Source: Lentilactobacillus parafarraginis DSM 18390 = JCM 14109
Lineage (GTDB): Bacteria > Bacillota > Bacilli > Lactobacillales > Lactobacillaceae
Assembly (NCBI RefSeq): GCF_001435895.1
Contig: NZ_AZFZ01000024.1
Location: 1 to 41,132 of the forward strand
Length of the DNA stretch: 41,132 nt
Direction of reading: 5' to 3'
Below are positions 33,891 to 35,000 of this stretch, in pieces. Made by a program: the position numbers and the translations under genes. The notes below the pieces were generated by a model. The model was not told the DNA's origin. It saw only the letters and a program-made list of their open reading frames with translations, and ran no database searches. The first letter of the stretch is position 1; each line of letters starts with the position of its first letter.

Positions 33891-35000
33891 ATGCCAGATG
33901 TAAATGAAGATTTAATTAGAGAGGTCGTTAAACAGGTCCTCGCTGAATCCAAATCTCAATCAAAATCGAGCCCCGCTAAGACGCCAACTTCAAATGGCAA
34001 AAAACGAATCTTTGCCTTTAGCATCCGCAAAGATGAAGAACCATACGTTAAAGAATGGGCTGGCAAGCACCCCGATATTGAGGTTGGATACACAGATGAA
34101 CTACTATCCCCTCAAACTGCAAAGTATGCCAAGGGGGCGGATGGCGCCGTTGTTTACCAACAATTATCATACACGGCGGATACCCTCCAAGCACTTGCTG
34201 ATCAGGGTGTGACTAAGATGTCGCTTCGAAATGTTGGTGTGGATAACATCGACATGGATAAAGCAAAGGAGTTAGGTTTCCAAATTACCAACGTCCCGGT
34301 TTATTCCCCGAACGCAATTGCTGAACACGCCGCCATCCAAACTGCCAGAATTCTCCGTCAATCTAAGGTCTTGGACAAAAAGGTTGAAAGTGGGGATCTT
34401 CGGTGGGCACCAACGATTGGCCGCGAAGTTCGGGACCAAACCGTTGGGGTTATTGGAACCGGTCATATTGGGCGCGTATTTATGCAGATTATGGAGGGCT
34501 TTGGCGCTAAGGTAATCGCTTTTGATCCATTTGAAAACCCGGAATTAAAGCGCAAAGGCTATTACGTTAACACCTTAGACGAGCTCTACGCGCAATCTGA
34601 TGTTATCTCGCTTCACGTCCCTGCCACCAAAGATAACAATCACATGATCAATACTCAGTCCATTGCGAAAATGAAAGATGACGTTGTTCTAGTTAACTGC
34701 TCAAGGGGCCCATTAGTTGATACGGATGCCGTCATTAAAGCACTCGACAGCGGTAAAGTCTTTGGCTTCGTGATGGATACGTATGAAGACGAAGTTGGGA
34801 TTTTTAATGAAGATTGGAAGGGAAAGGCCTTCCCAGACAAACGTCTCGAAAACTTGATTCATCGTTCAAACGTTCTGGTAACACCTCACACTGCCTTTTA
34901 CACCACCCATGCAGTTAAAAATATGGTACTGAAGGCATTCGACAATAATCTGGCGTTAATTAGCGGTCAACCAGCTGAGACACCAGTAAAGGTTGAGTAA
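33891..35000 (+). CDS. D-lactate dehydrogenase with microcompartment-targeting extension
   Basis: A 369-residue NAD-dependent D-lactate dehydrogenase. From residue 38 it aligns with L. bulgaricus D-LDH, as I recall it, with a constant offset of 37: Rossmann loop GTGHIG (189-194), catalytic R272, E301, H333 (R235, E264, H296 there). The first 37 residues are extra: [18 protein letters not shown], then a Ser/Lys/Pro linker. This matches PduD residues 1-18 in 9 positions, and nearly all others are conservative, so the enzyme is probably packed inside the microcompartment. There it could oxidise D-lactate to supply NADH for carbonyl reduction, or regenerate NAD. GAGGAAC precedes the ATG. Confidence 0.9.

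Follow-up and report, generated by a model that had tools for sequence, protein, structure and literature searches.

A D-lactate dehydrogenase with a PduD-like N-terminal helix, very likely cargo of a pdu microcompartment variant without PduP, PduL and PduQ

The window, the whole 41,132-nucleotide stretch of DNA analysed here, carries a pdu operon on its minus strand. The operon begins with the shell proteins PduA (30876..31154, PF00936) and PduB (30045..30800, NF011944) and continues through PduC, the large subunit of a diol/glycerol dehydratase (28341..30017, NF011979), PduD (27601..28323, NF011616), whose N terminus resembles that of the dehydrogenase described below, PduE (27031..27588, NF011972), the reactivase PduG (25160..27004, TIGR04491), PduH (24814..25167, named by operon position), a PduK-like shell protein (24173..24817, BMC-domain matches) and the shell protein PduJ (23862..24161, PF00936). 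There follow a PduM-like protein (23325..23834, PF15953), the vertex protein PduN (23068..23343, PF03319), the adenosyltransferase PduO (22456..23043, PF01923), an HbpS-like protein with a tag-like N-terminal helix (21993..22469, PF03928), an 81-residue orphan without a Pfam match (21744..21989) and a PduU-like shell protein (21386..21730, PF00936). Past PduU the operon encodes a tyrosine-phosphatase-family protein and then a flavin reductase. PduV (19274-19702, PF10662) is encoded on the plus strand. An ABC ATPase with an ECF-type S component, possibly a vitamin importer, lies near the operon (15789-18168, plus strand), and farther off are a PemK/MazF-like toxin gene (11165-11777, plus strand, PF02452) and, ahead of it, a small gene without a Pfam match.

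Three genes follow one another on the plus strand: an AraC/PocR-like regulator (31383..32444, family profiles), a short-chain dehydrogenase (SDR) of the R-specific alcohol dehydrogenase type (33037..33795) and a D-lactate dehydrogenase (D-LDH). The regulator has a weak C-terminal match to DUF4430, just under the cut-off, and the same domain is clear in the neighbouring gene at 35123-35872. DUF4430 is transcobalamin-like, which makes a B12-sensing regulator conceivable. The SDR matches NF052562 at 9e-101, below the cut-off, and solved R-specific alcohol dehydrogenases are among its top structure matches. After the second strand it has Ala-Ile (6/6) where the best solved match has Gly-Arg, which may favour NADH. 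It has no recognisable tag.

The D-LDH frame (33891..35000, plus strand) encodes 369 residues and was assigned as NAD-type by family profiles, by its match to the solved enzyme 2dld and by motifs. GAGGA stands ~7 nt 5' of its ATG, and the first 40 codons hold no alternative ATG, GTG, TTG or CTG start; the N-terminal extension is therefore translated if the enzyme is. This, together with conservation of the extension, rules out an artefact of wrong start and chance helix. Homology to D-LDHs sets in at residue 38-39, both in the leading NCBIfam, Pfam and PDB matches and against untagged D-LDHs in whole genomes. The alignment to 2dld (2.2e-173) is gapless, residues 39-367 falling on 3-331 of the chain (329 residues). 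The initial annotation had described an ordinary D-LDH with a clean N-terminal addition at a constant offset of 37 residues: the addition is confirmed, a conserved helix and a linker preceding enzyme homology that starts only at residue 39, and the offset is indeed constant, but in the alignment to 2dld its size is 36.

Both 2-Hacid_dh domains are matched over their length (PF02826, 6.6e-51; PF00389, 2.6e-25), and NF006374 is matched at 4.8e-87 with 292 bits, under the model cut-off of 356. A Rossmann GxGxxG motif (189-194), the acidic D212, R272, the stretch 296-303 and H333 are present, corresponding to the acidic residue of NAD-type enzymes and the Arg, Glu and His of catalysis. Since 23 NCBIfam models match the frame, the family is broad, and the packaged enzyme might act on a different 2-oxo or 2-hydroxy acid linked to diol metabolism. 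We consider this very improbable, because the three top solved-structure matches are all D-lactate dehydrogenases and because genes of D-LDH type without a tag, from Lactobacillus and Limosilactobacillus, match it at 71-83% identity (among the best 80 of 83 matches). A second, untagged D-LDH (57-59% identical) occurs in three of the genomes (G000, G397 and G411), so that the tagged copy is an extra D-LDH there. The plasmid collection gave 2797 matching records, every one below 60% identity.

The extension divides into a helix resembling an encapsulation peptide (residues 1-18, 33891..33944, plus strand), hereafter the tag, and a variable linker (residues 19-37, 33945..34001, plus strand). As first proposed, the tag resembles the N terminus of the window's own PduD: 10 of 18 residues are identical, and the ungapped BLOSUM62 score of 61 was reached by none of 20,000 shuffles (mean 7.3). 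Relatives conserve the tag, 14 of its 18 positions being invariant over six sequences. Across nine variant loci (below), pN/pS, summed over all sequence pairs, which are not independent of one another, is 0.10 for tag codons 2-18, 0.35 for the linker and 0.085 for the catalytic part. The constraint on the tag is thus about that on the enzyme. AlphaFold2 places a helix at residues 6-21 ahead of the LDH body, with pLDDT below 50 at residues 1-6 and 16-34. Taken alone, the hydrophobic moment of the tag does not exceed that of shuffles (p 0.16), nor does that of PduD (0.13), and it was uninformative. Encapsulation peptides are recognised as a terminal amphipathic helix of about 18 residues followed by a poorly conserved linker, and, the hydrophobic moment aside, the D-LDH shows both. 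A PduD-type targeting peptide with a linker behind it, the central claim of the initial annotation, is supported at the level of sequence by the conserved helix, by purifying selection, by association with pdu genes and by a linker that varies between loci (pN/pS 0.35) and is modelled with low pLDDT (below 50 at 16-34). The N terminus of the HbpS-like protein also resembles the D-LDH tag (shuffle p 0.00035).

From this evidence the D-LDH is very likely packaged in the pdu microcompartment. In Salmonella, the tags of PduD, PduP and PduL direct cargo and that of PduE does not (PMC12108088, in excerpt); by this analogy a tag-like extension need not target. The D-LDH could then be an ordinary cytosolic enzyme carried along with the locus, as might also be read from one tagged Limosilactobacillus genome (G447) in which no shell gene was found. 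We give this reading a slim chance, the tag being under selection, PduD-like and associated with pdu genes.

That association was examined first across the family. PduC was matched in 46 of 397 family genomes, five of them, besides the window's own, at 94-95% identity. We compared 20 stretches: one centred on an untagged D-LDH and 19 on PduC, namely those of the five close relatives and 14 whose PduC is 69-76% identical. Gene order is the same in all five close relatives, with the SDR (91-95%) adjacent and a tagged D-LDH (83-87%) aligned from residue 1; the PocR-like regulator is present in four of them. The 14 other PduC stretches, 18-20 kb each, contain neither SDR nor D-LDH. Searching with the D-LDH gave, among the best 80 of 83 matches, eight variant loci, five of which had been found independently through PduC: those of Levilactobacillus zymae, L. 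koreensis, L. fujinensis, L. suantsaiihabitans, L. enshiensis and L. andaensis, Lactobacillus sp. HBUAS51381 and Secundilactobacillus collinoides. Counting the window, there are nine variant loci, and in all nine the SDR and the tagged D-LDH lie beside pdu genes; the loci of the three additional species stop short of the PduP/PduQ place. Tagged D-LDH is associated with PduC over the 397 genomes at p 1.8e-8, relatedness ignored, and 38 of the 46 PduC-positive genomes have no tagged D-LDH.

A sample of 50 Limosilactobacillus genomes, in which a D-LDH was scored as tagged when its match began at residue 3 or 4, gave tagged D-LDH in eight, PduC in ten and both in six (Fisher p 0.0003, relatedness ignored). 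The check proposed at the outset, whether such extended enzymes accompany pdu clusters, thus came out positive in the family, where eight of eight have PduC; in Limosilactobacillus six of eight do. The two exceptions, G447 (99% complete) and G428 (75% complete), have a tagged D-LDH, and neither PduC nor a shell gene was found in them, which rules out a strict rule of co-occurrence. An absence of the extension from homologues unconnected with compartments would fit most of the rows compared; G447 and G428 carry it where no shell gene was found.

The variant loci differ from canonical ones in what they lack. Among the scanned genes of the window operon are no PduL, PduP, PduQ or PduW. A canonical locus (L091) has PduP, PduQ and PduW between the HbpS-like gene and PduU, and in the window the 81-residue orphan alone occupies this place. 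We searched 15 PduC-positive genomes whole for PduP, PduL and PduQ: six variant, eight canonical and G202. PduP is absent from all six variant genomes, the best matches being 27-30% identical and falling in AdhE-length frames in five genomes and in another aldehyde dehydrogenase in G411. PduL is likewise absent from the six (no PF06130 match), as is PduQ, for which the best matches (36-48%, E no better than 6.8e-55) are AdhE-length or other Fe-alcohol dehydrogenase frames. The same searches found all three in each of the eight canonical genomes (PduP 69-100%, PduQ 63-100%). In the window's genome an Aldedh search gave nine matches; of the four longest that are not AdhE, none has a PduP-like start. 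Of the features of PDU1-type loci, shell proteins, B12 diol dehydratase and reactivase are thus present, and PduP, PduL and PduQ are missing from all six variant genomes searched. The locus is a pdu microcompartment variant in which shell and signature enzyme are kept and three core features of PDU1 are gone.

The orphan in the vacated place begins with a helix resembling the PduP tag (shuffle p 0.0014). Further conserved stretches follow this helix, and the five close relatives have the orphan as well as the window. It is perhaps a leftover tag retained as a core linker.

Among 22 PduC-positive genomes, which are related and were chosen by us, tagged D-LDH occurs in eight of the nine that lack PduP and in four of the 13 that have it (Fisher p 0.011, relatedness ignored). 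The D-LDH is not simply a swap for PduP, because four Limosilactobacillus genomes have PduP and carry a tagged D-LDH off the operon: in L. caviae (G297), L. caccae (G388) and L. rudii (G438) it lies ~44-48 kb from a PduP-bearing operon, and in G435 ~0.49 Mb from the pdu operon. A strict exchange is weakened further by G202, which has neither; it keeps PduQ and a broken trace of PduP (G202:C2:208884-209048), PduL is missing, and the D-LDH matches best at the level of untagged enzymes. The oxidative branch seems to have been lost separately in G202. The tagged D-LDH of L. caviae adjoins cob/hem-type genes; in L. reuteri this locus recurs, but its D-LDH is untagged. In L. rudii the tagged D-LDH stands next to a second microcompartment locus, eut-like by eye (L109, 1-9858), on a contig with further shell matches.

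Alternatively, the packaged D-LDH might act in assembly over metabolism, helping to nucleate a core from which tagged PduP and PduL have gone. Condensation can be driven by the tag of PduP (PMC12339742, in excerpt), and compartment formation falls when enzymatic tags are removed (excerpts of PMC12108088); the orphan with its PduP-like start would fit such a role. We think it improbable, however, since the catalytic motifs are kept under strong selection (pN/pS 0.085) and tagged D-LDH also occurs in the four PduP-positive genomes.

Two L. panis-type genomes (G433 and G434) look intermediate. Their operons lack PduL, PduP and PduW and retain PduQ; PduP is absent genome-wide, and the absence of PduL and PduW refers to the locus. 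In G434 a tagged D-LDH is divergently oriented ~3.4 kb before pduA, past two small genes and a regulator. These genomes would thus represent a state with PduP lost, PduQ kept and a tagged D-LDH nearby. A second tagged D-LDH of G434 lies in a satellite locus (L222, 14394-17838) that also encodes a phosphatase, a flavin reductase and a vertex protein resembling PduN.

A tree of 77 D-LDHs, made by a quick method and omitting duplicate or near-duplicate rows of 12 loci, rows below 60% identity and six without the start motif, places all 19 tagged rows inside one clade of 26 (SH-aLRT 99). The tag label requires at least four changes on this tree against a mean of 17.3 when shuffled, and the starred branches alone force three. 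Variant D-LDHs fall in a clade of 16 rows together with L. panis-type ones, four of them untagged. The simplest account would be a single gain of the tag, later losses, and transfer to Levilactobacillus, Secundilactobacillus and the window's genus.

Both transcription units have cre-like boxes, scored against the cre consensus. One overlaps the -35 element of a sigma-70-type promoter match (11/12) before the SDR and D-LDH (32963..33001, plus strand, two mismatches), and another, without mismatch, lies upstream of pduA (31190..31203, plus strand). The box GAAAGCGCTTTACA precedes the SDR in eight of the nine variant loci, and the ninth has, at the same distance, a match with two mismatches to the consensus. 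Promoter-like sites in the region before the SDR number 12 against 10.4 expected. Over the window there are 40 cre-like matches with at most two mismatches against 22.6 in shuffles, and eight of 12 upstream stretches (250 bp) of Limosilactobacillus D-LDHs, tagged and untagged, have a two-mismatch box, so such a box does not single out tagged enzymes. Given this excess, and the boxes at tagged and untagged enzymes alike, only positioned and conserved boxes count. The 250 bp ahead of the tagged D-LDHs L111, L112 and L113 contained no cre-like box of this kind. With boxes at both promoters, the genes are probably expressed when little sugar is available. If they are real, both units would be repressed by good sugars, which would favour lactate use over lactate production.

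Starting from what is observed, namely the tag and its conservation, the association with pdu genes, the catalytic motifs and the absence of PduP, PduL and PduQ from six genomes, we favour, with slightly better than even confidence, a streamlined pdu microcompartment with a rewired internal cofactor cycle, in which packaged D-LDH oxidises D-lactate and the NADH reduces the aldehyde. The enzyme would be imported through its PduD-type helix and would convert D-lactate to pyruvate inside the compartment, making NADH; this direction of flux we infer. D-lactate-derived NADH would replace that normally supplied by PduP and would reduce the PduCDE product, an aldehyde (propanal or 3-hydroxypropionaldehyde), to the alcohol, the probable reductase being the neighbouring SDR in the window and PduQ in the L. 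panis-type locus. Electrons would pass from D-lactate as donor to diol or glycerol as sink, and pyruvate would leave towards acetate and ATP formation. A private NADH/NAD pool had been suggested from the initial annotation, and the six genomes searched whole and lacking PduP, PduL and PduQ strengthen this idea. If 2,3-butanediol were used, a ketone such as butanone would be the substrate reduced. A role in forming 2-butanol from 2,3-butanediol, raised by the SDR type and by excerpts of two papers, is kept as a side option only, because, judged by redox potentials, D-lactate donates electrons poorly to ketones.

D-LDHs commonly prefer to reduce pyruvate, and butanone would be an uphill acceptor. 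Run in the customary direction of the fermentative enzyme, packaged D-LDH would reduce pyruvate and so restore NAD+ for an oxidation inside the compartment, such as that of an alcohol or diol by the SDR, whose relatives are R-alcohol dehydrogenases; a lactate/malate-family dehydrogenase is predicted to regenerate NAD+ in the PVM type (PMC4207490, in excerpt). This seems to us unlikely, since NADH-making PduP is missing from the six variant genomes and the cre-like boxes point to expression when sugar-derived pyruvate is low. Oxidation of D-lactate, the direction we prefer, agrees with lactate consumption by L. panis PM1, a strain other than the genome examined, in microaerobic cultures that had reached stationary phase (PMC3605185, in excerpt), and lactate breakdown has been put forward as a source of NADH in 2-butanol formation (excerpts of PMC6833138). 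To a wider account we give an even chance: that these are purely reductive metabolosomes with D-lactate as internal donor and diol or glycerol as acceptor, in which tagged D-LDH came in for PduP, PduL and PduW, the SDR later for PduQ, and the locus then spread between genera of Lactobacillaceae. Re-oxidation of lactate coupled to glycerol reduction has reportedly been described.

A usual catabolic core comprises an aldehyde-making signature enzyme, an aldehyde dehydrogenase, a cofactor-regenerating alcohol dehydrogenase and a phosphotransacylase (PMC8217296, in excerpt). If our account is true, this shared core is exchangeable, a natural compartment draws NADH from an outside donor, and the two-enzyme cycle offers a test bed for the idea of a private cofactor pool. 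The locus may also supply an enzyme by which heterofermentative lactobacilli tie lactate use to glycerol or diol reduction, a matter relevant to cider, wine and sourdough and to making 1,3-propanediol or 2-butanol. Neither a D-LDH in a pdu compartment nor a locus of this type was found in excerpts of the open-access literature, outside which most subscription papers lie; the initial annotation knew of no such D-LDH either.

One near parallel among known systems is Salmonella, where PduQ recycles NAD for PduP inside the microcompartment (PMC3471927, in excerpt). There as here, two dehydrogenases would recycle NAD(H) within a shell, one of them tagged at its N terminus, with an alcohol as product; unlike there, the pair proposed is tagged D-LDH and SDR, with D-lactate as donor and no acyl-CoA. 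The locus shares with PDU1-type loci the same kinds of shell gene, PduCDE, reactivase and adenosyltransferase, and differs as a variant without aldehyde dehydrogenase, phosphotransacylase and Fe-alcohol dehydrogenase; in the excerpted surveys, compartments without aldehyde dehydrogenase are catalogued as BUF unless otherwise defined (PMC4207490, PMC8217296). A lactate-type dehydrogenase is predicted to recycle cofactor in the PVM compartment too, but that enzyme belongs, by the names used in the excerpted paper, to another family, and PVM has an aldehyde dehydrogenase (PMC4207490). The 2-butanol route of L. diolivorans resembles the proposed one in proceeding through diol dehydratase and then reduction, with extra NADH from lactate suggested by its authors, whereas it uses PduQ, and the excerpted text mentions no tagged D-LDH (PMC6833138). 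Finally, the catalytic domain is colinear with that of fermentative D-LDH (2dld, 1j49), without a gap over 329 residues of 2dld, and is set apart from it by the helix and linker that stand outside the match, which begins at residue 39.
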